Source of the DNA: Aquila chrysaetos chrysaetos
Taxonomy: Eukaryota; Chordata; Aves; Accipitriformes; Accipitridae
Length of the DNA stretch: 64,000 nt
NCBI RefSeq assembly: GCF_900496995.4
Contig: NC_044004.1
Coordinates: forward strand, 55,768,224 to 55,832,223
Direction of reading: 5' to 3'
The notes beneath the pieces are model-generated. The model was not told the origin of the DNA, did no database searches, and saw only the letters and a list, made by a program, of their open reading frames with translations. This document shows, one piece after another, positions 17,001 to 42,400 of this stretch (positions are counted from its first letter, which is position 1; each line of letters starts with the position of its first letter). Position numbers and translations under genes: made by a program.

Positions 17001-19870
17001 AGAATCTGTGACTTCAGTGAGAAATTAGTATGAACTACCTTCTAATACATACCCCGAAGAGAAAACAAGTGAGCACAGTAACACCTGCGGCTGCACCATA
17101 TTGTCCTATCACCATATAAACCCAACACATTATGACCGTAAAATAAGAATTTGTGTTAGAACTGAGAGAGCTCACAAAACCTTAACTGTTTCCTTCTCTT
17201 CACTATGTGCTGACACACTTTTAATTACGTAATGAATTACTTTTTTTTTTTCTCAAGTGGACCCCCCTGCTTTATTTATCTAAAAGATGACAAGGAGATA
17301 ACAAAGCAGTCATTTTGTTTGTTCTTAGCCAGTGTAAAATGCCAGTTCTAATTCATTGCACAACTTCCAGTTCCTGTCCTGAAAAAAGGACATTCTGTGT
17401 GTCCTTGCAGCTTACTGCACTTTTAACAAGGCTATTTAAGTGCCTCAAAAACTTAAAAAAAATAAATAAAAAAAAATTTGAATGAGTTGATGTTGTTTTG
17501 GGAGGAAATGGGATGAGTTGAAAAGAATTACCAACCTCCACAGCTAGAAAACTGAAGCACAGGGATATTACAAGTTTAGAGAGTCCCCTAATTTCTAAGT
17601 ACCTAGTTCAAATCAGGCCTAGGGCCTGATTTTTTTCAGTGGTATTAGGGCATCTGCAATTCTCATTAGCTTCAGATGGAGCTTTAACTGCCCACCAGTT
17701 CCACAAATCAGGCCCTTGTTTCAAGCTGAATACCTGAAAAATGAAGCACAAACAATTAGCCGTCACTAATGGAAACAGAGTGAAGTGACTTATTTAACAT
17801 CACAGAGAAATTCTGTGAAGCATTTAGTTTCAGTACACAGTTCCCCAGATTACAGTCCACTACCACAAGACCATCTTTTCACCAGATCTGTACCTCATTT
17901 GTGACACACTTTGCTAATTTCCACAGTGAATAAAACAAGTGTCCTACAGACAATAGCCTAATTAGCCATCTATTTCTTGCACTGAATACTTTACAATGGT
18001 GGTTTTGTAGTAGCAGTCCTACTTAAAAAAAAAAAAAACCAAACCCAAACACTCAAACCATAAATCAGATGGAGATTTTCTTTTTTTCCTGAAAGCTACT
18101 GTAACTCTTGGAGGTATTAGATGGTAATAAGCTACGTGAAGCAGACAAGGCTGTTTACTCTCTTTGGTAGAAGAAGCTGAATTGAAACCCTCAGCCTTCC
18201 TGCCTCCTGACCAACACAGCTTCCAAAAAGCTGAAAGTATTTTCATGCATGTTATCTTTTCAAGCCACAGAAATTTAGGGGAATATGGAAAACTTCTGCT
18301 TGTTTTTATTTCAGAGAGGTACGTCACGTAGCAAGAATATAAACAGTGCCACGTTCTTGATCCAAAGCAATGGTTACCTTCTTCCAGGTGATTTATCAGC
18401 AACTTCCATCCTGCCTTGCAGGAGAGAAAAAAAAAAAACAAACCACCACACACAAAAAACCTATTTACTATAAAAAAGAAAAGCACTGATGAGACCTTCG
18501 TTTTTTGTTTGCATATAAAAAGCAGTCAGGAGATAAGAGAGGCCAGAAAACATTCACTGGATCTGCTCACCTGACTTAAAGGCTTCACTACAGAATAAAA
18601 GACAGCGCAGAACACTTCCAGTCAGGATTTCACTCCAAAGTCATGTTCCAAAAATGGCAAATGCTGAGGCCTTTAGGTCAGTACAGAGCCCTGAAGACTT
18701 TCGTATTCCTTCCACGGCACAGACAATGTAAGTGAGAATCAGAGAAACGCAACAAGTCACTGCTGCGTTCGAAGGTATTTCAAGCTGACTTCTGACACTG
18801 TGTGACAGAGGCTCCAAGACAGGTAACAGCTCTGCATACACTGAAACCTTACTATTGCTCCTTTTAAAAAATAATTTCTAAACACCTTTTGCTAGAAAGA
18901 CGCCAATTATTTTTCAGGTTTTAGCACAGAAGTGTCTGAAGAGCCAATTAAGTCACGGGGGGAGCCACCGATCCCATTTCCTCTAAGAAAGTGAAACCCG
19001 TGTGCAATTCCTACGTAGCTACTGTACAACCAAAAGGGAAACGAAACCAAGAAACCCGAAATCAAACGTAAATTAGAGCATGAAGGCGCTGCCCAGTCTG
19101 GAGCAGCAGCTCTTACTGCAAGCTGTTAGTGAGGGGTAATTCACGGTGACAGAAGAGAAGCCAACCCAGCCTGTCTTGGCCTGGGGCCTGAGGTGTCCTG
19201 CTGTTAATCGGGTCTAAGCCTAGTCTGTACGGCTACAATTCTGTCGATGGCCGAGGGGAGAGGGGAAATGCAGGCGAGGAGTCGGGCTGGCCCAGAGCGA
19301 ACCCCTTTGGCGAGGGGGGAGGCAACCCCGCTCCTCCCCACCGCCTGACGCCAGAGGCATACACCGACGGTGGAAATGCACCTGCCCTAAGCGCTCCTCC
19401 CGGGCACTTCCATCACCGCTTCGGCCTTTTCTTCCCCGCCGAGCCCCGCACGCCGCCGGCGACCCCAGCCCGGGCTGGTTTAGGAGCAGCGTCGCCCCGG
19501 CACGGCGCAGAGAACGCACCGCCGGCTCCCCCTCGCCTCAGCGCCTCAGCCTGCGGCGGCCGGCCGCGCGGGCTAAGAGCCCCCCGGGGTGAGGAGACCC
19601 CCCCGCCCGCCGGCCGGCCCCACGGTCCCCCTCGTCCCGACGGAGCAGGGCAGCGGAGAAGCGGCAGAGGGGAGGAGGGACGGCCGCGGCAGCAGGGCCG
19701 ACGGGGCGCCGGGCGCGGGGAGGGGGCCGGGCTTCACCTCGGGCCGTCTCGGTCGGGTAGAGCTTCTGGGCCTTGCCGAGGAAGCGGAGGGCGCGGTCGC
19801 GGTTGCCGGCCTCCAGCGCCTCCCGCGCGATCCCGATGCACTTCTCGGCCTCGTCCCGGTTCCCCTCCAT
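1921..19870 (-). CDS. DNAJB14: DNAJB14, DnaJ/Hsp40 family member B14 (5' part: exons 1-3)
   Basis: DNAJB14 is an ER-membrane J-protein that stimulates Hsc70 ATPase activity in quality control of membrane proteins. Seen here: three minus-strand exons, 19738-19870 (133 bp), 12894-13068 (175 bp) and 1921-2066 (146 bp). They join in phases 1 and 2 through GT-AG introns of 6.7 and 10.8 kb and encode the first 151 residues. The start [11 protein letters not shown] and the exon 2 start with MKNGSTAG closely match human DNAJB14 as I know it. The J domain begins near residue 108, and the catalytic HPD is at 137-139 within [11 protein letters not shown]. The human protein is about 379 residues, so the distal J domain, Gly/Phe-like linker, transmembrane segment and DUF1977 domain lie outside the window. 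The paralogue DNAJB12 is less likely, given the exon 1 and 2 sequence and the H2AZ1 neighbour. No frameshift or missing key residue is seen. Confidence 0.96.
7955..7977. repeat. poly-T homopolymer (23 nt)
   Basis: An uninterrupted run of 23 T, which is poly-A on the DNAJB14 transcript strand. No target-site duplication or retrocopy body was recognised next to it. Confidence 0.9.
11256..11853 (+). mobile_element. Solo LTR of an avian endogenous retrovirus (copy 1)
   Basis: A 598-bp element that starts TGTGCTGC and ends CATGACA. It is flanked by GCATG (11251-11255) and CCATG (11854-11858), a 5-bp target-site duplication with one mismatch. It shares many blocks with the LTRs at 14710 and 57117: GGCTGGGATAGAGTTAA, the GTTGATAACAC region, CACAAGAAG, GACACAGC and GGGGTTAAACCA near the end. 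A TATAAA at 11534-11539 and an ATTAAA-like tail region give plus-strand sense, antisense to DNAJB14. A 5-bp duplication fits an ERVL-type (class III) element, but the family name was not checked. No internal retroviral genes are present. Confidence 0.88.
12894..13068 (-). CDS. DNAJB14: DNAJB14 exon 2
   Basis: The acceptor is TATAG before TTTTGTTGGAAG, and the donor is TTCAG|GTATGG. It encodes residues 45-102, including [17 protein letters not shown], a Ser/Asn/Lys-rich linker and [12 protein letters not shown] just before the J domain. It enters in phase 1 and leaves in phase 2, matching its neighbours. The linker is the part most diverged from the mammalian protein. Confidence 0.95.
14710..15287 (+). 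mobile_element. Solo LTR of the same family (copy 2), perfect 5-bp TSD
   Basis: A 578-bp element running from TGTCCCGGTTTCAGCTGG to GGTTAAACCACGACA. It is flanked by perfect ACAGG duplications (14705-14709 and 15288-15292). The AT-rich 3' part carries TTATTATT-type repeats and CTATTAAACC, a likely LTR polyadenylation region. It lies in intron 1 of DNAJB14, antisense to the gene. The exact duplication, compared with one mismatch at each of the other copies, is consistent with a younger insertion. It has no coding content. Confidence 0.92.
15790..15813. repeat. poly-A homopolymer (24 nt)
   Basis: An uninterrupted run of 24 A in DNAJB14 intron 1. No upstream retrocopy was recognised. Confidence 0.9.
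19738..19870 (-). CDS. DNAJB14: DNAJB14 exon 1 (coding part)
   Basis: The start codon is the reverse complement of CAT at 19868-19870. Forty-four codons follow, rich in Glu, Arg and Ala ([25 protein letters not shown]), the N-terminal helical region shared by DNAJB12 and DNAJB14. The donor is GTGAAG, leaving one base (phase 1). The exon sits inside a CpG island. Longer ORFs in other frames of this GC-rich block were discarded because only this frame matches the family. Confidence 0.95.
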
Positions 19871-20114
19871 GGGCTTCTCCTTCCGCCGCCTCCGCCCGCC
19901 GCAGCGCAGAGAGAAGGGGCCTGAAGCCAGAGCGGAGCCGGGCGAGGCAGAGAAGAGAGGAGAGGAGCGGAACGGGCAGGAGGGCGGCGGGCGGGGGCTG
20001 CCCTCACTCCGCAAGGCTCATCCCGCCGCGCCGCGCCGGCGGTACCCGCAGCCCCAGCGCGGCGCTCGGCCCCGGCAGCCAGCCCGGCCCGCCGCCTGCT
20101 TCCGGGGCGCCCCC

Positions 20115-21901: not shown

Positions 21902-21963
21902 TTAGACAGTTTTCTGTTGTCCTTTCTTTCCAATGAGAGACTTGTGGATATGCGGTATTACAC
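21902..21963 (-). CDS. H2AZ1: H2AZ1 exon 5 (coding part)
   Basis: The acceptor CTTAG precedes GTGTAATACCG, and the TAA stop is at 21902-21904. It encodes [20 protein letters not shown] 3'UTR of roughly 0.3 kb follows to the AATAAA at 21584. Confidence 0.97.
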
Positions 21964-23773
21964 CTAAGAAAGAGCAACAATTAAGACCATGTTATTTCTC
22001 TTCAACAGTTCTCCTAAACTTTGCACTTCAAATAAAACAGCAGCATTAAGCAACCTCTAGTCTGTTCAAGTTCCTGCCACCCAGCTCATCACAGAGAGTC
22101 AGCAAGCAATTTACATACCACCACCAGCAATTGTTGCCTTAATGAGAGAATCCAATTCTTCATCTCCTCTAATTGCAAGCTGCAAGTGACGGGGAGTGAT
22201 ACGTTTCACCTTCAAGTCTTTGGATGCATTTCCAGCCAGCTCAAGAACCTGAGGACAAGACAATTTTTAAACCGAGTTACACAAACCAAGTGAAACCAAC
22301 TGCATGGCCTTGGCTATTTTATTCTCTATGCCAAATACGCTATTAGTGACACCAAGATGGCAAACAGTGCCTCTTTTGAAAGGGTTCCTTCCTTTGGAGC
22401 TCTACATTTGGTTTTCCCCAAGAACAGAATAAGTGTTTTAGAGCAGATAGGACACACTGTAATAGCACATTTCATAAAATACTTCACACTTCCATCTGTC
22501 CTATAAGTCACAGCGCTTTGATCTGCACAAAATGCAGAGCAAAACGTCCCATGTGTATTTCATGGTCTCCTGATGAGGCACACATTTAAAACTGGCTCAA
22601 AGCAAGCGAAGAGTTCACAGCCCAGTCCAAATGGGCAAAATACAGCAGGCTCCGGTCATTGCACCCTTTTGGAGTTGACCAACTTGCTTGCACCCCATTG
22701 CAGGAGCATTACCTCAGCTGTCAAGTACTCCAGGATTGCAGCGCTATACACAGCAGCTGTGGCTCCTACACGCCCATGGCTGGTAGTCCTAGACTTCAGG
22801 TGCCTGTGGATGCGGCCAACAGGGAACTAGAAAACAGCAGAAGTATGACTAGGCTGTGATGACAGACAGAAAAAGAAAGCCACTACTCTAAACCACATGC
22901 CGGGCAACAGAATCCCAGTGGCAGAAGCACGGACTATATTTCAACACTTCAGAATCCAGCTAAGGACACTGTATGCCAAGTTCACATCAGCAACTTCACA
23001 ATTCTAACCGCAAGCAGTAGCAACAGCCACAAGGAAATTCTCTTCCCTCCCACACAGACATGCAAAAGTCTAAAAATAGTCACACCAGACATTAACAAGA
23101 CTCCAGTATCAAACAGATCCTTACACCATTCTGGACGACAGACCGTGCCGGTTTCACAAGGCACAACCAACCAAGAGATGGAGGGCCAATCTGCCTTTCA
23201 TTCACCCATGCCCCAGTCTCTGCTCACCTGCAATCCAGCCCGCTGAGAACGGGACACTGCTTTGGTCTTGGTCTTTCCAGAGTCCTTCCCAGCTTTACCA
23301 CCAGCCTACCAAAGAGATGCGTGAGAGCTGCCGCGCCCGCCGTCCCCCCTCAAGAGACACCGTACCTGCCAGGGACGGCGGCCAAGGGCCCGCGCCGGCA
23401 GCGCCGCGCATGCGCTCCCCCCCTCCTCCTCCGCCCCTCCCTCCCTCCCGCAGGGCGGCACGCGCGACCGCAAGGCGCGTGCGCGCTGCCCGCTACACCT
23501 AGCGGCACAGGCCGCTCCGGGGGCGCATGCGCGGCCGCCACGCCCTCTCCCCGGCCGCACTAGTGCGCGTGCGAACACCAACCCCCCCCCCCCCCCCCCC
23601 CCCCCGCCTACCGGCAGGTAACGCGCCTACCGGCGCGCGCCGACCGCGCTCCCCTCCCCTGCGCGAGCTCCCACCTCACGCCAACGGCCGCATCAGCTCG
23701 ATCCCCTGCCAGTCCCCGGCAGCGCGGCCGGCCGGCCGCCCCCACCCCAGCGGCCCCCGCGGCTCCTCACCAT
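21902..23773 (-). CDS. H2AZ1: H2AZ1, histone H2A.Z variant 1 (complete, five exons)
   Basis: H2A.Z replaces H2A in nucleosomes around start sites and is deposited by SRCAP/p400 complexes independently of replication. The coding parts are 23771-23773, 23228-23305, 22713-22826, 22119-22248 and 21902-21963. They total 387 nt, which is 128 residues plus TAA, the usual family length. Splice sites are GT-AG and all phases fit. The start [11 protein letters not shown], the histone fold ([35 protein letters not shown]), the acidic-patch segment ([16 protein letters not shown]) and the C-terminal docking region ([19 protein letters not shown]) are intact. Without counting Met, Thr14, Ser38 and Val127 identify H2A.Z.1 rather than H2A.Z.2. 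Residue 12 is Thr where the human protein has Ala. Exon 1 contributes only the ATG, directly against the donor, as in known H2A.Z genes. Confidence 0.98.
22119..22248 (-). CDS. H2AZ1: H2AZ1 exon 4
   Basis: A 130-bp exon encoding [35 protein letters not shown] and IKATIAGGG. The donor is GTATGT. It includes the extended acidic patch (Asp/Glu of GDEELDS) that chromatin remodellers recognise. Confidence 0.97.
22713..22826 (-). CDS. H2AZ1: H2AZ1 exon 3
   Basis: A 114-bp, phase-0 exon encoding [35 protein letters not shown] and TAE. The Ser in HLKSRT is the H2A.Z.1-type residue 38. The donor is GTAATG. Confidence 0.97.
23228..23305 (-). CDS. H2AZ1: H2AZ1 exon 2
   Basis: A 78-bp, phase-0 exon encoding [18 protein letters not shown] and RSQRAGLQ, the N-terminal tail with its acetylatable lysines at 4, 7, 11, 13 and 15. 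The acceptor is GGTAG and the donor is GTGAGC. Confidence 0.97.
23306..23770 (-). other. H2AZ1: H2AZ1 intron 1, CpG-dense with NRF1-type sites and a C24 run
   Basis: A 465-bp intron directly after the start codon. It holds two perfect GCGCATGCGC palindromes (23406-23415, 23523-23532), a GCGCGTGCGC variant (23475-23484) and 24 consecutive C (23582-23605), which are G on the transcribed-RNA strand. An intronic regulatory role is inferred. Confidence 0.75.
23582..23605. repeat. poly-C homopolymer (24 nt)
   Basis: Twenty-four C in a row in H2AZ1 intron 1, giving G24 in the pre-mRNA. It could form a G-quadruplex. Its length may also be unreliable in assembly. Confidence 0.9.
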
Positions 23774-24030
23774 GGCGAACCGGAGCGCAGCGCCGCGCAG
23801 GGGCAGACAGAAGAGGAGAGCGTCCCGCACACACAGAGCCCGGGCGACAACACCGACCCGTCCCGACCCGCCGCGATTCAAACTGCGTCCGCTCCCGCCT
23901 TCCCCCGGCGCTTTATAACGGCCGAACGTGCCTGCATCCGGGAACCCCAGCCTCGCCCCTAGCCAATGGCTGCGGGCGGGGGCGGGCCGCTCTGCCCCAG
24001 CGACAACCAATGGCGGGGCGGGGAGGTGCC
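23774..24030 (-). promoter_or_regulatory. H2AZ1: H2AZ1 promoter: TATA box and two CCAAT boxes
   Basis: Reading the minus strand towards the gene, CCAAT-type boxes occur at 24007-24011 and 23963-23967 (plus-strand CCAAT), with GC boxes between and around them. TATAAAG follows at 23917-23911. A start near 23885 would give a 5'UTR of about 110 nt before the ATG at 23773. TATA plus tandem CCAAT elements is the known layout of vertebrate H2A.Z promoters and supports strong, proliferation-linked expression. The exact start is inferred. Confidence 0.85.
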
Positions 24031-24960
24031 GGCCTCGCGATGCGGAGTGAGGGAGAGGTCCCGCCCCCCTTTAAAAGGACAGGCGCTCGGCGCGGGGGGC
24101 GGGGCACTGACGGCCCGGGAGAGCGGCGAGGGAGGGGGCGGAGTCCCGGGCGGCGGCGGCCCCCAGGGCGGGAGGCTCCGCCCGCCCCGGCTGTGGCGGC
24201 CGCGGCCTGCCGCCGAGCCGACGCCGCGGCTCCGCCTGGCGTCCCCGTCGAGCTGCCCGGCCCGGATTCCCCCCCCTCACCCCCCTTCCGCCCTCCGCCG
24301 TTGTTTCACGGGAACGGAGGCGCAGTCCCCGCTCGTCCCGGCCCGGGGACGCGCTCCCGCGGCGCCGGTGGTGCCTGGGGTGGCGCGGAGCGTCTCCCGC
24401 GGAGGAGCGGGCCGCCCGCCAGGCGGGTCCGGCTGGCCGCCCGGCGGCGATCAGGGCGGGCTTTCTGGCGTGCCGGCTGCTGCCGGGCGGGGGAGTCGCT
24501 TCACGAGTCTCACCCTCTGAGAGCTAAAGTCTGACTGAAATAATAAAATAAAATAAAATAAAATAAAATAAAATAAAATAAAATAAAAAAATATAAGCGT
24601 ACCTAGAGCGTGCTGGGAGCCGGAGCAGCCGCCCGAGGGGCAGCTGCCCGCTCGTCGCCGCAGGCCGCGGTGCCGGCCCTCCCTCAGCCCCACGCCCCTG
24701 CGCGCCCGCGGCCGCCCTGCCCCGGAGCCGCCCGGCCCCCACTCGCCTCCCCTAACCCGAGGCGTGAGGGCCGGGTCCTACCGGCCTCCCCCCCGCCCGG
24801 GGCCTTCCGGAGGGGGAGAGACCCGGCTGCCGCTTCGGGGAAAGGCGGCGACGGCCGCCGCTGCTGCCCAGGCAGGGGATGGGGTGTCGGGGCGCGGTGG
24901 GGTCGCCGGCGGCAGAGGTGGGTGCCTGAAGTCACCGAGCGCCCCGACTCGTTTATTAGG
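24031..24960. promoter_or_regulatory. Upstream part of H2AZ1 CpG island, possible divergent promoter
   Basis: A GC-rich, CpG-dense block continues about 1 kb upstream of H2AZ1. It includes TTTAAAAGG near 24070 and many GC boxes. Long plus-strand ORFs here (for example 23527-24534 and 24610-25131) are proline, arginine and glycine-rich and reflect base composition. Divergent plus-strand transcription from this island is plausible but not shown by the sequence. Confidence 0.6.
24541..24594. repeat. (AAAAT)n microsatellite
   Basis: About ten copies of a 5-bp AAAAT unit, ending in an A-run, set inside an otherwise CpG-rich island. Confidence 0.95.
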
Positions 24961-26657
24961 GCTTATTTATTGCCAGGTCCCATGCCTGTACCGAGCCTAG
25001 CTCTGCCTCGCCTTTTACTCGAGTTGCTTTGGGTCTGCCGGTTGAAGGCTTCCCCAATAAAGTTAATTGACTTGGCGTACAAGGCACCTCAGAAGCAGCC
25101 TGAAGGAGATTACGTCCCGGGCTTGGGATGAGGAGCTCCTACACTGCATTAGCGAAGACACGAGGTCGCCCAGTGCCTTGAAGGAGGACGAAGTCGCGTC
25201 TGCTCTTCATGATGCTGGGGGCAGGGAGGTGCCAGCACGGCCAACAACTCCACGCACGTGCACTGGTTTTTATTTTTACCTCCATCTTATGCAAGAGATG
25301 CGTGATTACCAAGGGCAACCCTGCCTCAGACCCATTTGTCTCACTGGATATTTCACAAACCATGGTTAAAAACTGTTCATCGTTAATTTGGTTCCAAATA
25401 TAACATTTAATTAATGCAGTGCGGATCTTTGCAGCTTGGGCACTTCAAATCCCTGCCTGTATTTCCCTGAAATGAAGCCTTAGCCCTGTTGGTTTTTAGT
25501 TTCTTTTTTTTTTTTTCAGGTGCCATTTTCAGTACAGCATTATTACTTCTACTTCAGGAAAAAAGCAGCCTAGCCATTTAACCTCAGAGCTCAGCTGGGG
25601 GTGTTCTCAGTTAAACCACCTCCTTCAACTCCAAAAAAGTAACAATTCATTGTGCTTTTCCAGAACACCATAAATCTCTGTTATCTGAGAGATACCCCAT
25701 TCATCTGTGAGTATGCAATGCGCCCAGGGAGAAACCCTGGCCCTTCAACGGCTGAATAGCTCTTTAGAAGGAAGACTGTATCTGTCATGTGCTTTACCAA
25801 TCTAATCACAAAACCGCCACATTAGATGTTCATGTATTTCCTTTACCTTGATATTGAAGGGGTCCCAAGCACGATGAGTACTCTTACAGACAGATGTTTA
25901 ATGGGAGATATTGCTGAGGGCATAAATCTGTTATGAGGATTCTCTCCTCGCCATAACTTTTTCACTTTTTTCAGGTCTACAACAAGCAAAATACTCAGAA
26001 CTCTAAGGAGGGTATGTGCGGATCCCTAGAGCTCCACTTCAAGGTCTTTCCAGCTGTTCAATGAAATAGTAAAGATGTAAAACTTTGTGGCTCTTCTGCT
26101 CCTTCGGCTGACCCCAAATACTTGGTCCCCTGGTTACAAAGGACCCTTTGCTCGAGCCTCCAGACAGCCTCAGGCCACATCGTCAATGCCTTCAACACCC
26201 GAGTTTCAGTTCAGGCATTTTGTGTTAGCTGCCGCTTCAGGGTGGGGAGACCTACTTCCAGGCACAAGCACAGAGAGGCAGGATGGAATTGAGAGCAGAC
26301 ACTCCTACATGCAGGAATCTGGCAGTTTGTTTTTATGTAACTGTCTGATGCCTCTCTCTATTTGAAGCATTAGTTGTTTATGTTCTCCTTCAGCAAGCAA
26401 GAAGAGGGCTTGGGGTTTTTTTTTTAAAGTTTAAAAACAAACCTCAAGATTTTACAGAAGCCTGCAGAAGTTAAGATTTCGTTCACCTTGCTATTTTAAA
26501 AATGATTTCTGTCCAAAGTGCCTACAGCAAGGATCCATTTGCCCTTTTCCTTATGAGGAAGAAGAGCCAAGTTGCAGGCCATAGGACCCTCTGGGAACAG
26601 CATTTGAGATCTAGAAGGAAAAAAATTGATTTTTTTCTCCCTGTTTTCTGTCCACAG
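24961..26657. other. Intergenic spacer upstream of the Sel1-repeat gene
   Basis: Ordinary-composition sequence. An AATAAA occurs at 25056-25061. No coding exon with supporting splice sites was found. A non-coding first exon of the downstream gene could lie here or in the CpG island, but I cannot place it. Confidence 0.5.
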
Positions 26658-29800: not shown

Positions 29801-32800
29801 GCGCTTCTAGCCCTGACCTTGCCAATGCTCAAGGAAGGAAAGAGAAACTGTCTGATTAGAGAAGTCCTTTATGTGAAAAAGAAAAAGGAAGAAAATTGTG
29901 TTTTCCTGAACATGGCTGGTTCCAGGTTTTCAATCAAAATGCTCCTTTGCAGGAGCTGGAAATGGTTCTTCACAACTTGTTCTGTGAAGATGAAAGGGAA
30001 AATAGAAATGCCACCTGCCCCTTGAAAGAGCAGAGAGAAAATTTACTGGGGGGCTTGTCCTTTCCTTGCCAAAGTTGTTGCAGGTAGAAGGGATCCAATT
30101 CTTCTTTGTTGGCAGGAGGCAGCTACTACAGCCATCCTTTGTTTCTAGACTGGCAACCTGGTTTACTTCTTCCTTGTGGTGTAAGTTGATTTTTGTAGAG
30201 AAGTAACTCAGGCTCACAACTGGAATGAGACCCTGTACCACACCTGGCATAGCCCTCACTGAATAATGCATAATTAATAACAACAGGGTCTCATTTTTAG
30301 TCATCTGCAACAAAGAACTGCAAGCCCCAGGGTCTGTTTTATATTGAGAAAAGTACCGATTTCACAGAGCTAGGCGAGATGTCAGTATGAATATAACTAT
30401 TACCAATACGCCTTTACAAACAACAATAAGAATAACTCAGGAGCTTACTTCTGCCAAAATTTGGGATTGCAGCTATAGGATGGCTCATTCCCAAGAAGAA
30501 TGACTCCTTGAGAGGTTGGGTTTTTTTTAATCTTTAAATTCTAATAATAGTAGCTAAAAAAGGAGAAGGGTAAGTAGGCGTTAGACTCCTCACCTTCTTT
30601 CATCTCTTCCTGGCTCTTTGCTGCAGTAAAGGTCCTTCTGCTCTGGACTCGTTTAGAAGTTTCTGAGTTATTTTAGTTTCCTTAATGCAGAGTTTTGCAC
30701 TTGGAAGCGATTGATCCTGCAGTATGACTATTAATGTCCAATTAAATTTGATATACTGTGAAAATGGTTCACACTTTGACCAGGGGCATAAAGATGGATC
30801 TCTTCAACCATAACGGGGCTGTGACTGAGCAAATGAAATTGGCCCAATGGTGGCAGCATAACATAAGAAATAAAATACAAGAGTATGAAGGGTTTCCTCT
30901 TCAGTAAGGTTATTAGCCTGAGTCATCACCGCCAAGAGGTATCCTTGTTCTTTGGGGGTGGGGTTGCCTTTAAAACCAAAGCATGCCACTTATCTTGCTG
31001 TAAAATTGGAAAGAAAACTATTTTATTTTTACTGTCAGGCAACCAGGCAAGGTCAGCACTTCGCATGAGATGGACCTTGTCTGACGGCCATCCGGTTAAG
31101 ATCCTGTGCTAGGACTTCAGAGCAGGCAAGGCAACATGCATTAGGGATCTTGTGTTAAAAAGAGATGTTTTCTTAGATATGAAGGGAAAACAGAATTTAG
31201 TGTCCAAAAGTCACTAGGTGGAGTTACTGCAGATGAATAGAAGCATAATTATACAGCTATGAAATGACTGCCTTTAACAAGTAAGCTCTTTTCTAGCTTA
31301 AAAAAAATAATCCGATCCTGTTGAATTTTGTGGGGGTTCTGTATGTTCTGATAATTTCCCAGTTATATATCATTGCACTTTTTCTAATTTTCTCACCTGG
31401 GACTCAGCCTGCATGTTCTTGCTTTTGTCCAAAATCCAACACATCACACCCCATGTGCCTGTGGAGACCATGCAATTGAAATAACAAGATAAAGAACTTT
31501 TGCAGTGGTGGGTAACGTTATCATTGCTTGTGAAGCGCTTTCCTTCTCATGCAAAAAGCAGAAAGAAAAAAACTTCAAGTTTGTCAAATACAACGATTTA
31601 CTGGTGGGGGCTTGCAACACCTGGGGGCAGGCTGAAGGAAGACAAATATTCAGCACAGAGAGAGTTAAACATCAATGGTTTGAAAGGATTTTGGCAGGAG
31701 CATCTTCTTTTCTATGGCTCTGCAAGGGGATGTGTATCCGTCCCTCTTTTATCTTAGTGAAGCAGCTGGGCTACTGCTGCCATAAATCAGGAGCAAAACT
31801 AAGGGACAGTGATGGGGAAGACTTATGGCAGGGCGGCAGCGCGTGGTGAGACAGGGAGCAGACCAGGTTGAAATGAGGCGCTCAGACCTCCTGCAGGAGG
31901 GAGAGATGGGGGACGCAAATCCTGCGGCGTGGCGGCAACGGGAGGGTAGGGGCAGTGCTGGTACCTCCCAGGCAAATCCTTCTCCAGGGTCTGGGACCCC
32001 CCACCCCCCCGGCTCAGCGTGGAGCAGGTGGGAGGTAAGTGTGGGGATGGGCTCAGGGTGGGAGTGCTGGCACCGGGGTGTTACGTGACGGCCTGGACCC
32101 CGCAGCTGGCTGGGCACACCGGGAAGCAATGCCAGCCCCTGAAAACCGCCGGTGCCAGGGTGGGTCGAAGCACGGGGAGCTGCTTGCACACCACAGCCCC
32201 TCAAATGGGAGTCTTGCAACGCCTTTCTCAGTGCCATGGCCTGGAGCAGACCCAATTGCAATGCCACCGAAGCATCTGCAGAGTCCCTGCGGCTTTCTGC
32301 TTACCAGCATAGGGAACGCAACGCAGGACTCGCCGATAGTTGTTGCAGTGCGGAGTTTGGGGAGCGGGGGCTTTTGCTAGCGCACAGTAACGTGTGGCAA
32401 CTTCCAGTGCAGTCATTATGGGTGGGATTTTTAGGCATTCCTCTTGATCACCTTTTTGACCTTGACCACCTGGCTTTGGCATATGGGTGACGGTGCAGGT
32501 GACACACCGAAGCTGCCATAGGAACCGGGTCACTTAAATACGCATGCACAGCCTGGTCTGGCTCCCTCACTGCCCTGTTCACTGGTGTAGCCCCACCGAT
32601 ACCACTGGGCTTCCTCTTGCTTTAGAGCAGCCCCAATGATGCAACATCTGAAACATGCAAAGTAGTTTCCCAATGAGTCACCACAGAAGAAAAGGGTGGG
32701 ATGAACAACCAAGAGCTCCCCCCAAGACTGTGAGGGTGGTTTCAGGCCAGTGGTCCGCTTCCCCGCCCTGCGTGAGGCAATGCAACAAGCTCCCCACGTT

Positions 32801-35800: not shown

Positions 35801-38800
35801 TTTTCCCTGCTGGTGCAGTACAGCAGGCTTTTTGCTGATTTATACTTTGGATGCAAGAAGAGTTTCAGACCCAAGGTTATTTTCTTGTCAGGGGTGGACA
35901 CTGGTGATGTGTCCTCACTGTAACATGGGATGAAAGGGTTTATGAACCAGGGATGTTCACAAAGGGAGTGTTCACATCTGTATGGCGATGCTGCGGTCAG
36001 TGGTGGGCAGCGGTGGGCTGAGGACCCGGCTGCCCAGGGAATGAGGCTCCTTCTGGCAAGCCTCTTTGATGAATTGCTCATAAAAGCCTGATGCTGCCTT
36101 CTGATTTTTTTTTTCTTTTCTTCAAGTGGACCACTAGAAAATGAAATGATTGTAGTTTCCTTTGCTGTAGCAGAGCTTAAAGCGGATATTAACTTGGGAG
36201 CTGATCTGCTGCTCGCTGAAGTCAGTGGCACCTTTTCTGCCAGCTTCAGTGGGTGCTGGAACCGGCTCTTTATCAAAGGTGACTTTGATTTTCTGTGGTT
36301 GTGTGAGCCTTTCCTCCCATTTCTCTGTGGGGAATAGCTTTTGGAGGCTTCAGAGCTCAGATGAAATTTGCTGTAGCTGGTTCTCAGCTTCTTTTTCTCC
36401 TTGCATCATGACTGCTCCTCTCTTTACAGTTGGCAGCTGTAATCACTGCTGGCCTTCTCCTGCTCTACATCCTGCTGTGCTACGAGGACTTCCATTTCCA
36501 CGTGGCTCATGTGTACGCTCACCTGGGGTACCCCAACGCCCAGCACATCCTGGGACAGAGGTATTTGCAAGGTAACATTTCTCCAAGCCGTGGCTAACTT
36601 GCTGCCAGAGTGCATATAGGTATAAGCCAGAAGCACAAACGTGGCTCTGCGCTATGCAGTACACCACCACACTGCTGCATTTTGGACACATATAGTTAGT
36701 TTATATGCTAACTATGACTTTGCTACTTTGTCTCACGCTCAGGAGCTGGAGTGGAAAAAAATGAGGACATGGCCATGCACTGGTTCAGGTGAGGTGCAAA
36801 AAACCAAAACCTAACTCCTGCCATGGGAAATTGCCCTCTCCTGGGGAAAGGCTGCTGTGGTGTGGGAGGAGGAAAAAGAGCCAGCAGTGCTTTTGTGGGG
36901 AGAGCCATGCTGAGCTGTCCTGCGCCGGTGGGAGGGAGGTGCACGGGGCAGCAGCAAGGAGACCAGGAGCTCCCAACTTCTTGCTGTGGGTCAGATGTTT
37001 TGCTCCGCTTTCCCCACCTGCTATTGCTATTTCTTAAATCAGTGGGAGGCAAGTAAGTGTCTCGACAGTGAGAGTGCAGAGGGGTGCTGGTGCTGCTGTA
37101 CAGCCTTTTGGAGAGGTTCGAGCTGCAGGTGGGCAGTGGGAAAAATGCACTGCCGCAGGAGTGGAGAGGGCCAGAAGCTGCTGAGGCAACAGAAAATCAA
37201 GTTATGGCAGTGTATTAATCTCCTGCTCTTGGCACACGCTCCCAAGAGGTTTCTGCCACTTAAGTGAGGCAGCTGTGCATTTGCTGCGGTACCTGCAGTG
37301 GTTACACCCGCGGTGGGAGCCTGGGCTGCGTCCCCTAAAACCCTCCCGCTCCTGCTGAGAAACAGGAAGGATGAGGGATGGGGAAAGTTACTGCGCTGCC
37401 CAAAAAGTGAGGGGGAAGGGGGGGCAGGTTGGATGTTTCCTCTGTGACTGCTCATGGCGTAGAATAGCATCAGGCTGCAGGATTTTTAGGGCTGAAATAA
37501 CTGTGCTTGTGAGCGCAGGGGTTGTGAACCAAGAAGGCATCTTTAAGGACATCCCTACTTAGACAAACACTGAAGTGTTGGCACCTTTCTGAATAAGGAT
37601 GTTTCCCCGTTCAGGGCCTGAAAATTTTAAAGGGGTCACATTTCAGGACACTGATTTATACATATCTTTTTCCTTCTTTGCTCTTACCTTGCTTTAAAAC
37701 ATTCAAACTCAGGTTTTCTTCTTCCGTACTTTCTCTTACCACTGTCTTTCCTTCCCTCTTCCCCGCTGTAGGCAGGCTGCGGGGCAGGGCCATCCCCACT
37801 CCTCCTTCAACCTGGCGGTTGGCGCACTCAGAAACATGACTGTGGCACTTGAAGAAGGGTAACCTGAGCTATTCCTCTTCCTTTCCATTACAGCTGCATT
37901 CCCAGCTCCTCCCGGGGAGGGCGGGAACCTGGTGCTGTAGATACTCCACACATGAAGCTACTCCAGCGTTTCTAATGCCCTCTCCTTGTATTGTCAGTAA
38001 TGCAGCCCTACCTGTGGCAAGAAAACTGAAAAACTCAGTTAGCCCAATGAGATTTTAAAAATGAGGTGACACAGTACCTAAAATGCCTGTGGTCTGATTA
38101 CATATGTGTTTCCATCTGTGATTTCCCAGTAAAGGCAAGGGACAAGACCTATACTGGTATAGACAGAGCTGTTGAAGCGACATGTGAATTTTCTGCTACA
38201 AAGACCTGTCTTTCTTTCTGGGGGAGCCCCCTTTTCTCTCTCCTTCCCGTCCAGCGAGGTCAATGAGAAGTTTCCTGTTGACTGCCCAGAGGTTGGGTTG
38301 AAACCGTCCAGGACACGTTTCTCTCCCTGACGTGCCTGCGCACACTGCATACCAGCATTCCCAGCAAGGCCCACAGCCAAAGAAAACTTGCCTTGTTCTT
38401 TGTACATTTGATGTGGTGACTCATCCTGGGGCTAAGTGAAGCTAAAACGACTGATGAGCTCCCATCACAATGAAACCTAGTCCTTTTTTTTGTTATTGTT
38501 TTGAGTTTTGAGTTTTTTACATTTACTCTGAGTCTGAAAATTAAAATTGAGGTTAGAGAAAGCAGTCTTAAGGTAACTGAAACTAAAAAAGCAATGTTTG
38601 GGCAAATCCTGTGAGTTAAAGCTAGCGCGTTTCATTTCAATCTCCACTGCATGTCGCATGATTAGGCAGACTCATGTATTGATTGGTGAAAGGGGCATGT
38701 ATTTCAAGAGGTCCAAATCCATCTTCAATTCAATTAAGACAAGAAGATCACCAAACCCAGAACATACATGCTCAGACCACAGAGAAAAGCAGAAAGAAAA

Positions 38801-39053
38801 TCAGATCATTTTCTGAATAGTGGAGAGTTAACCTTACAGATGCTTTCAGATCCAGTAGCTGTGGTCCTCTTATAAAAGCCTGGGTAAATAAAATTTAGCT
38901 AGGAATGAATCAAACCTCCTCCTGGATTTTCTTGATGAAGGTTTCATGTCCTTTAGGGAAGTGGAGAAACTCCTCAGTGTGGCAGCAGCCCATGGGCTCC
39001 GAGAAGCTCAGCAACTTTTGGAAAACATTCTCAAGAGCAGAAACCTTCACTGA
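26695..39053 (+). CDS. Unnamed single-pass membrane protein with Sel1-like repeats (six-exon model)
   Basis: I do not recognise this gene by name. The model joins 26695-26809, 28114-28190, 36430-36571, 36743-36788, 37772-37858 and 38957-39053 (564 nt, 187 residues plus TGA). All introns are GT-AG and all phases fit. Residues 66-81 form a hydrophobic transmembrane segment (AAVITAGLLLLYILL). A clear Sel1-like repeat follows at about 96-133: ILGQRYLQGAGVEKNED, then AMHWFRQAAGQGHP. A degenerate repeat at 134-175 ends with LLSVAAAHGLREAQQLL. Sel1 repeats are alpha/alpha scaffolds for protein-protein contacts, often in ER or mitochondrial quality control. The last four exons are well supported. The first two rest on splice signals and phase only, and the ATG at 26695 has a weak context. 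An earlier exon is possible. In human the gene following H2AZ1 is DDIT4L, so a mammalian counterpart is not obvious. Confidence 0.7.
28114..28190 (+). CDS. Candidate second coding exon of the Sel1-repeat gene
   Basis: A 77-bp segment with acceptor TTTAGTTTCTGCAG and donor CCTCAG|GTAACT. It enters in phase 1 and exits in phase 0, matching both the candidate exon at 26658 and the exon at 36430. It encodes VVGIILISRLMDEALAESS and LYHVPQ, giving a short hydrophobic stretch before the main transmembrane segment. Confidence 0.5.
28191..36429 (+). other. Large intron of the Sel1-repeat gene model
   Basis: 8.2 kb with no convincing further exon. The content is a 20-T run (28457-28476), a GC-richer block at about 31.8-33.0 kb and many overlapping chance ORFs on both strands. 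A donor-like GGAG|GTAAGT occurs near 32036, but no matching coding exon was established. Confidence 0.5.
36430..36571 (+). CDS. Sel1-repeat gene exon: transmembrane segment and first repeat
   Basis: A 142-bp exon. The acceptor is a long pyrimidine tract ending CTCTCTTTACAG, and the donor is CAAG|GTAACA. It encodes LAAVITAGLLLLYILLCYED, FHFHVAHVYAHLGYPNAQ and HILGQRYLQ. It starts in phase 0 and ends in phase 1. The hydrophobic helix followed by A-x-LG-Y-NA-LG-Y-G spacing is typical of a Sel1 repeat. Confidence 0.88.
36743..36788 (+). CDS. Sel1-repeat gene exon: GAGVEKNEDMAMHWF
   Basis: A 46-bp micro-exon. The acceptor is CTCACGCTCAG and the donor is TTCAG|GTGAGG. It encodes the conserved G-GV-K-x-x-x-x-A-x-x-W segment of the repeat. 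It enters in phase 1 and leaves in phase 2. Confidence 0.88.
37772..37858 (+). CDS. Sel1-repeat gene exon: AAGQGH motif
   Basis: An 87-bp exon preceded by a very strong pyrimidine tract (CTTTCCTTCCCTCTTCCC) and GCTGTAG, with donor AAGAAGG|GTAACC. It encodes RQAAGQGHPHSSFNLAVG and ALRNMTVALEE, starting with the canonical AA-x-x-GH end of a repeat. It begins and ends in phase 2. Confidence 0.88.
38957..39053 (+). CDS. Sel1-repeat gene terminal coding exon
   Basis: The acceptor is TGTCCTTTAG. It encodes GEVEKLLSVAAAHGLREA and QQLLENILKSRNLH, then TGA at 39051-39053. The AA-x-HG-x-x-x-A signature completes a second, degenerate Sel1 repeat. A 3'UTR of about 0.4 kb follows. Confidence 0.88.
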
Positions 39054-39468: not shown

Positions 39469-39474
39469 AATAAA
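39469..39474 (+). terminator. Polyadenylation signal of the Sel1-repeat gene
   Basis: AATAAA, 416 nt downstream of the TGA stop, with GT-rich sequence nearby. It is the first canonical signal after the stop codon. Confidence 0.75.
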
Positions 39475-42400
39475 TGATCATGACCGAGGCTTTATCACTG
39501 TAAATCAGCATGACATGCATGCATGATGTCATTTATAATAGAAATGACAGTGATTTAATAGAAAATATAAATAATGCCCTCACTTAATAGCTATCATTCT
39601 TTATCAGTGTTACCCCTGTCATGCCAGTTTTGGGGAAAAGCAATTCAATTTAATGGAAACTACCTTAATTTTCAGGGTGGTCTCGGTTTAAAACCACAGT
39701 GGGAGCAATTGCATTTCACGGGAAGTGCACTCACTAAACGAAGATCCACAGTGTTTTGCTAGCAATAAATTTTTTTCCCAGGGTTGCCTTTGTTGGTGTG
39801 CAATCTTTCTTTTTTTCCTACCGTGATTATCTATCTCACTTATTGCATTACATGATGTCTTGTGCTCCCCCCAGGTGCCTGAGGCCACACTAGTGAGCCC
39901 GAGACCCCGGGGCTGCCACCAAGGGAGCAAATGGGACAGCAAACCCGTGGCAGAGGCCAGGCTTTGGTTGCCAAGAATTGCTTTTGGGCCATAACTCATA
40001 GGCAAAGGCGTGAAGGATTTTGCCCAGGCTCCTGTTTCCCCGTCCCCTCTCGAGCGTGAGCCCCAGTATCTTTCTAGGGTGATGCTGGCAACACCCGGGG
40101 TGCATCCCGCAGGCACAACGTGCCGGCACCCAGCGCAGCGGGGGCTGGCAGGGGCCGGTGGCCACACATTAAGCATGGAATGGCCAGGCTTTGCCTCTGC
40201 TTTGCCTGGCTGTCCCCAGGCTGGGCTCCTCGCGGCCAGCTCTGCGTCTTGCTCCCAAGAGGAGAGGACAGAGCGGAGGAGACCTGGGTCCTGGCCATCC
40301 TTCTGCCTCCCCCAGCTCGTCCCCGGCAGCACCTCCTGCAGACCAATGCTCTCTGCAGTGCAGCCGCCTGCTCCCCCCACTCGCTTTTCTCCTTTCTCTT
40401 TCCCTTCTGCACTCCCTCCCACGCATCCCTTTTTATTAAATCTGGTACCACAAAACTTGCAGCAGAGCAGAGCAGAGCACCAGGCGAGTTTCTCTCTTCC
40501 CTCCCCCTCAAACAGAAAAGCAAGACAGCTTTTGCCAACTCAAAAAGGAGCTTATTTCCATGGCCTCTGCTGTGGCTGCGGACTGGGGCCCCGAGCCAGG
40601 ACCCTTCAAAGGCAGGGGAATATTTCCCTTGAAGTGAGGCTAGTGCTGCATCATGTCTCATACATGCTTTTTTTTCTCATACAGTAAACATGCATGAGCT
40701 GTAGCTCCTGATTTGGAAACTAGACCTATGCTATATGTCTCATATATAGAGAGATGCACCAGTTAAGTGCCCCGGGCATCCTTTTCAGGCCTGTGGTACC
40801 CTCCTTTTTGTGCCTGTGGGTGGGAAAACCTTGTATTTGTCCCTGCAAAACAGCATCCACCAGGTGAACGGCATGAGGAGCTGTGTCAAAAGTTCTGCTG
40901 AAACCCACACCTGTGGTGTCTGCTGCTTTTCCTTTACCACCAAAGTCATCCTCCTTGTATTCTCCATCCTCCCTAACTACAGCAGCCGACATCAGAGGGG
41001 CATTCAGGCATGGTCAAGGAGAGCCGTGCCCTGTTGTATGCCTCCACCAACCGGTGATGGCCGAATTCACACGCCTTTCCTATTGCCACTGGGTCCAGGA
41101 TGATGCTGTTAGCTGCCCAGGTTTGGCGTATGGCACTACCTCAGTGAGCACCAGGCATACTAACCTAGGTATTTGAATAACGAATATGTCGAGGGCCCTG
41201 TTGGCAGGGTCATTGTATTTCACAAGACTTAAGAAATCACCTTTTCTGTCCTCCAGTCAAAGCGAGTGAGCAGGTTTTTGTGTGCTGATCAGTTTTTCCC
41301 ACCTGAACTGTGTCATTGCTCAGCACCAAAATGGGCATTAACACCGACTGTGAGACACTGCAGCTACTGGTCAACAAGTCAGCCTTGAGGTTCACTCTGC
41401 CTTCACTTCGGTAGCAAGGTGTAATACCAGTGTGGCACTCATTTGCTGGTTCTTTTGTTCACTTTTTCAAAAAAGCTTGTTTGGAATATGACATTTTTCC
41501 TTTACCTCAGCTCTGGTTTCCTTACTGGTGCACATGGTCTCGTACAATGGGCAAGTGACTTATCATCCAGCGCTTTCCAAGTGGCCTCTTTTTTAATAAG
41601 GAGTAGTAAGAGCTGGACAATAAATCACGAGCAACCTTGCATACATTTCAGCAGAAAAAAAAACCTGTTGATTTAATAAAGCCGGTTATGAAATAGCAGC
41701 AGGAGGAGGCTATTGCAACTCAATGCAGTGCTGAGACTTCACCAAGAAAAGATGTTCACTGGTTTCATGCAATTTGCAGAATTAGCGCTTGCGTTTTTAC
41801 CCTCGCACCACCTCCCCTGAGACACGAACGTCTCCCACCCTAATTGCTGTCTGTACGATTTCACCCTGGATTTTCTTTCACTCCAATCCTACAAAACATG
41901 GTTTTGCGGTTGATGGCCGAGGGTGCACACATTTGCATTCCTCCTACCTTTTTCTCCACCAACCTGCCTCGCTGGGGCTGCGCTGGCTCCCGGTGGGTGC
42001 AGACACCCTGTCCCCCCCGAGGGAACAGCCCCTGGTCGCAGGGCACTTGTCCCGCATGGCACTGGCTGGACCTCCCCAGCAGCTGCCAGCCCTCTCCTCC
42101 TTGGCACTGCCTGTACACAGGCAATTAGAAGGATTTTCTTTCCCAAAACACAGCTCTAATTATAATCTAATTCAGCTTATTTGAAGTACATTTTGGTAGC
42201 ATTTCCATTATGCAAATATCAATTTATTATCCTCACATTATGTTTTGACTACAGTTGTGTTGCTAATTAGAGGCAATTTAACTGCTTTAAAAAAACCCCC
42301 ATCCTTTCCCCTCCATGCACCCTTACTTCCTTGCAAACCACACAGAACAGACACTTAGCACGGAGTCAGTGATGAAAACCTGCAGTTATCAGCTCCGTTT

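Follow-up and report, generated by a model that had tools for sequence, protein, structure and literature searches.

A five-exon Sel1-repeat gene of the golden eagle with relatives across bilaterian animals, putatively encoding a type II membrane protein of the secretory pathway

A 64,000-nucleotide stretch of the golden eagle genome (Aquila chrysaetos chrysaetos, assembly GCF_900496995.4, contig NC_044004.1, positions 55,768,224 to 55,832,223 of the forward strand; hereafter the window, in whose coordinates positions are given) carries a gene for a small membrane protein with a single anchor and a Sel1 domain. The gene has relatives across bilaterian animals and, as far as our searches went, it is ancient and so far without a name; the Sel1 domain itself is of a known kind, but the family is new. 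The reality of the gene, with its five coding exons, is practically beyond doubt, and on present evidence it appears to be single-copy. Its product is very probably a type II membrane protein with the Sel1 domain in the secretory lumen, as its sequence suggests.

The first-pass annotation of this DNA had described four exons of 142, 46, 87 and 97 bp, and all of them were found in place, with GT-AG introns, chained phases and the terminal TGA. It had given the gene as 36430..39053, which holds for the 3′ part and overlooks a coding exon further upstream. The features of the gene are the following.

31906..32034, + strand: coding exon 1, MGDANP...SAWSRWE (43 aa), predicted cytosolic tail; donor gtaagt.
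36171..36278, + strand: optional in-frame cassette exon, 108 bp, 36 aa, flanked by AG/GT; needed for an exact rebuild of the golden-eagle record P0002.
36430..36571, + strand: coding exon 2, 142 bp, AG/GT; transmembrane helix, FHFHVAHVYAHLGY helix and start of the canonical Sel1 repeat; 100% identity to P0002.
36430..36483, + strand: predicted transmembrane segment LAAVITAGLLLLYILLCY, the single anchor; mean Kyte-Doolittle hydropathy 2.15 over 19 residues; AlphaFold helix 41-59 in the sparrow orthologue.
36743..36788, + strand: coding exon 3, 46 bp, AG/GT; middle of the canonical Sel1 repeat.
37772..37858, + strand: coding exon 4, 87 bp, in-frame and skippable, AG/GT; holds the last part of the canonical repeat and the opening helix of the degenerate second one.
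37833..37841, + strand: N-glycosylation sequon N-M-T; N-x-S/T in relatives.
38957..39053, + strand: coding exon 5, 97 bp, AG acceptor and in-frame TGA; remainder of the second repeat and capping helix.
39469..39474, + strand: AATAAA polyadenylation signal, 416 nt past the stop, where it had been announced; a second AATAAA lies at 39764.

Joined, exons 2 to 5 give a 123-residue frame whose phases chain to the TGA ending at 39053, and a protein search with this peptide returned an exact golden-eagle match (LOC115343928, record P0002, 100% identical over 123 aa) plus relatives in birds, reptiles, and mammals. Exon 1 was sought between 28000 and 36400 among ATG-started exons reaching a donor in frame with a donor score above 3. 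Three candidates were found, the one with the top donor (7.8) closing 31825-32034; further in-frame ATGs lie at 31825 and 31873, upstream of the start at 31906. The 43 residues read from 31906 are identical to the start of P0002 and resemble the exon-1 peptides of P0007 and P0014. With exon 1 added and the cassette left out, the product is 166 residues long, as is the house-sparrow orthologue P0007; with the cassette, the window exons rebuild all 202 residues of P0002 exactly. The cassette was recognised in no record inspected other than P0002, and may be eagle-specific or a prediction artefact. In 5 of 153 sequences exon 3 is joined straight to exon 5 (P0069, P0082, P0086, P0089, and P0097, from jay, turtle, alligator, lizard, and koala, those of jay and koala being named as isoforms). 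Skipping exon 4 would delete part of the solenoid together with the glycan site.

The first-pass annotation had an anchor followed by Sel1 repeats. The single-pass anchor and the Sel1 domain stand, with one canonical repeat visible to HMMER and about two and a half in the structure model. Pfam Sel1 (PF08238) matches the 123-residue peptide above its cut-off (E = 4.5e-10, 40.1 bits versus 30.7) in one stretch only, residues 35-70, encoded by exons 2 to 4; the second repeat is visible in the structure model only. Neither this peptide nor P0007 has another Pfam domain, and a Sel1 match is present in 52 of 52 family members (E up to 1). In the model of the sparrow orthologue, the membrane helix runs into a minimal Sel1 solenoid with predicted helices at 61-74, 78-90, 98-110, 114-126, 136-146, and 150-162, and Sel1 structures rank top among its fold matches. 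The alignment of the 52 members shows HFHV-like, YAHLGY-like, GQRYL, and GHPH motifs after the N-terminal anchor. Six histidines (H65, H67, H70, H82, H113, and H115 in sparrow numbering), situated around the first repeat and the helix next to the membrane and encoded within 36430-36571 and 37772-37858, are each kept in 44 to 52 of these members and in 11 to 13 of the 13 invertebrate rows. To our knowledge they lie outside the general Sel1 pattern, and metal or pH sensing is a possible use for them. Nothing in the sequence is at odds with known Sel1 biology.

The orientation of the anchor is suggested by the basic residues before the helix and by a conserved sequon. We counted lysines and arginines on either side of the anchor in 79 sequences, the window protein among them, whose stretch ahead of the anchor was 25 residues or longer; isoforms and uncertain first exons stayed in. 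The mean is 3.24 over the 20 residues preceding the anchor and 0.38 over the 20 following it, an excess that by the positive-inside rule places the N-terminus in the cytosol. The signal is weak in the eagle and in many other birds, with 0 or 1 such residue ahead of the anchor. The sequon lies beyond the helix that opens the second repeat. From 152 relatives we set aside 22 without a match to the search pattern, which leaves the asparagine free, as well as 5 sharks and 16 invertebrates. The remaining 109 rows, which include isoforms and near-copies and are thus records rather than independent events, all have the asparagine, and 107 have serine or threonine at +2; the other two read NMR (a pigeon) and NSR (a squirrel record that is aberrant). 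At the middle position of intact sequons, M, I, T, R, K, L, and V all occur.

Other residues beyond the anchor differ between vertebrates and invertebrates. Two C-terminal cysteines four residues apart, e.g., VCTRGGC, are found in 15 of the 16 invertebrate members (P0093, P0128, P0129, P0131, P0134-P0137, and P0139-P0145), the sixteenth being truncated, whereas in 82 of 94 vertebrate or unassigned rows (putatively lumenal part of 95-130 residues) the region beyond the anchor is free of cysteine. The distal tail holds 4 to 12 acidic residues in 14 of the 16 invertebrate members; two barnacles have 2 and 0, one with a tail too short to judge. Several vertebrate tails carry basic runs, e.g., RKRKGRS and RSKKP, and such runs can serve as retention signals of the endoplasmic reticulum (ER).

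It had been suggested that the gene may be "lineage-retained or poorly described". The second description is apt; the distribution is much wider than the first implies and reaches molluscs, an annelid, and barnacles. A first protein search gave 108 matches (E up to 1), the named sources of which include birds, crocodilians, turtles, squamates, tuatara, platypus, marsupials, and placentals, with one barnacle relative at 52% identity. A profile of 21 sequences gave 1168 matches (E up to 0.001), the best 120 of which add, among others, caecilians, lungfish, sturgeon, sharks, bivalves, gastropods, the annelid Ridgeia, and a second barnacle. The best 120 of the 162 matches to a profile of 15 mammalian sequences add, among others, Xenopus and one primate, the gelada. 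Chicken and cattle have records of the gene; human, mouse, teleosts, and insects are not named among the matches listed in the profile searches. Record titles are mostly "uncharacterized" or borrowed from other Sel1 proteins ("EsiB-like", YbeT-like). The earlier statement that no named human gene of this kind was known at this position agrees with the matches listed, none of which has a gene name describing it, and our literature searches returned no paper that could be tied to the gene. Most of the bird records that cover 95% or more of the peptide lie at 84-100% identity, those of ostrich and tinamou among them; lower values come from quail (79%), kiwi (74%), and an isoform of a jay (72%). 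Many residues shared with molluscs are unchanged.

In a quick tree of 54 rows (53 of the 152 relatives and the window protein, with no bacterial rows), the 11 invertebrate and the 43 vertebrate rows fall on opposite sides of a branch with support 100. Placentals, sharks, turtles, marsupials, and caecilians are recovered as starred groups and squamates at 84, and the 13 taxon groups need the minimum of 12 changes. The weak points of the tree are the 25 of 51 inner branches left open and the long branches of sturgeon and lungfish. A tree that follows taxonomy in this way fits one orthologous gene. If the distribution holds, a gene common to these animals would be over half a billion years old.

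Primates may have lost it. No row named human is among the matches listed in the three protein searches, where the gelada record P0147 is the sole named primate row. This record lacks the AHFGYPSAQHIVGQRYLK stretch of the most conserved region, the Sel1 core, and has unrelated residues instead, as would a gene model steering round damage. The fragment P0108 is damaged in much the same way. Both look like relics of the mammalian gene, which is consistent with a loss in primates, judged here from protein records, among which a human orthologue could sit unseen, either in a row with no name or within a cluster at 90% identity.

Among the closest known Sel1 proteins is SEL1L, of which the eagle protein would be a cut-down counterpart. 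Mouse SEL1L is described as having 11 repeats, a fibronectin type II domain, and a C-terminal anchor, and as the lumenal subunit of the HRD1 ligase of ER-associated degradation, with a two-repeat module, SLR-C, that binds the N-terminal lumenal loop of HRD1 (PMC4746701). The comparison is with this module, by analogy. The eagle protein has about two repeats in 166 residues and no other Pfam domain was found in it; its anchor, in both model and hydropathy, is N-terminal to the repeats, which would make it type II. Hence, it lacks the marks of the SEL1L family, namely about 11 repeats with an N-terminal fibronectin type II domain and an anchor C-terminal to the repeats. DELE1, a mitochondrial stress relay, has a longer solenoid, whereas the eagle protein has about two repeats and a conserved N-glycosylation site. 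COA7, also mitochondrial, is cysteine-rich; the alignment with it shows only 11% identity, and most vertebrate or unassigned rows of the eagle protein's family lack cysteines after the anchor. LRP2BP is an animal Sel1 protein with a sequence match to the family profile (E = 9.1e-11), but it is soluble and its structure was solved in axonemal doublet microtubules of bovine sperm. EsiB, YbeQ, YbeT, and other bacterial Sel1 proteins have more repeats and share generic Sel1 similarity; they are the probable origin of the database names, which tell nothing about the function of the eagle gene.

The first-pass annotation suggested a quality-control or adaptor role for a Sel1 membrane protein, and the explanation we favour is of this kind. 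The protein would have a short cytosolic N-terminal tail, one transmembrane helix, and about 105 lumenal residues, folding as a minimal Sel1 solenoid of one canonical and one degenerate repeat with capping helices. This solenoid would begin right at the membrane and carry one N-glycosylation site conserved in bony vertebrates, and its two-repeat groove would grip a loop that a membrane partner, perhaps an ER ligase or a client, exposes in the lumen. The putative lumenal part has no Pfam catalytic domain, and its size would not suffice for a channel. An ER or early-secretory adaptor, taken alone, seems to us about evenly balanced between right and wrong; the whole explanation, which adds the type II topology and the binding of a lumenal loop, falls slightly short of even. 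ER residence, adaptor function, and partner are each faintly suggested. Several observations weigh against this explanation. Over the 20 residues leading up to the anchor, the eagle tail has a single lysine or arginine, and in several birds there is none at all. None of the 5 shark and 16 invertebrate sequences (3 of the 16 placed by sequence) has the sequon, so that the glycan is not an ancestral function. A KDEL-like ending is found in 0 of 153 sequences, a HRD1-like role is an analogy, and COA7 and DELE1 come out as fold matches with comparable Z (11.5 and 12.1), hence the fold alone picks no compartment.

The missing KDEL-like ending would also suit a type II protein acting at the Golgi or the cell surface, where it would serve as a scaffold or as part of a receptor and not in ER quality control, and the topology evidence suits any secretory compartment. 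The basic runs in several vertebrate tails speak for the ER instead, as does SEL1L, the lumenal Sel1 relative of known role, which sits there. We regard such a Golgi or surface protein as unlikely, if a serious contender. Doubtful to a greater degree is a Sel1 protein of the mitochondrial inner membrane or intermembrane space, like COA7 or DELE1, with the basic tail as targeting signal. A sequon that survives changes of its middle residue and of threonine to serine would be pointless in mitochondria, and the acidic distal tails of most invertebrate members also argue against this location.

Two further readings concern the gene itself. The damaged gelada record suggests that decay can happen, and the bird gene could be a decaying or unused relic, open in frame and not expressed. 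The open frame, the intactness of every splice site, the high identity of most bird records, and the residues still shared with molluscs make this very improbable. As for bacterial contamination or a transferred bacterial gene, the automatic names come from bacterial Sel1 proteins, and so do most Sel1 matches in PDB; yet introns interrupt the repeat, H2AZ1 and DNAJB14 lie nearby, rows group by animal taxon in the tree described above, and bacterial equivalog models stay far below their cut-offs (best 31.4 bits versus 330, five proteins scanned). This origin is hardly credible.

The neighbouring genes were searched for as well. The gene had been placed between H2AZ1 and DDIT4L; H2AZ1 is in the window (21905-23305, − strand), whereas DDIT4L has no convincing match there (best E = 0.93). 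A J-domain exon of DNAJB14 lies at 1922-2023 on the − strand, and a long minus-strand frame at 19541-20017 is presumably the first exon of that gene. The 1-kb bin starting at 32000 has a moderate GC content of 59% and a CpG ratio of 0.48, in contrast with the CpG island at 23000-25000. An AATAA tandem repeat of 11 copies (24542-24596) adjoins the CpG-rich region close to H2AZ1. Rfam models, applied to the window with their gathering scores as threshold, yielded 0 matches. In the portions of the literature at hand, a legend of gene neighbours has DDIT4L, H2AFZ, and DNAJB14 adjacent with no Sel1 gene (PMC4028059), a list of candidate genes at human 4q23 has the same three and names no Sel1 gene (PMC3814312), and the main text of a work on unitary pseudogenes has no H2AFZ, DDIT4L, Sel1, or 4q23 (PMC2864566).

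A bolder version of the favoured explanation, improbable as a whole, would have an ER adaptor family, so far undescribed, that predates the divergence of vertebrates and molluscs, with the six histidines forming a metal- or pH-responsive surface upon a minimal Sel1 platform, a glycan gained and a cysteine pair dropped in bony vertebrates, and the gene lost in primates. If this were true, human-centred ER research would never have met the family, as primates lost the gene. If the distribution holds, an ancient component of the secretory pathway would be invisible to human genetics, there being no intact primate record among the matches listed. Chicken or cattle cells, for which there are records, would permit direct tests. 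EsiB-like names in vertebrate and mollusc databases mislead, and their replacement is warranted.
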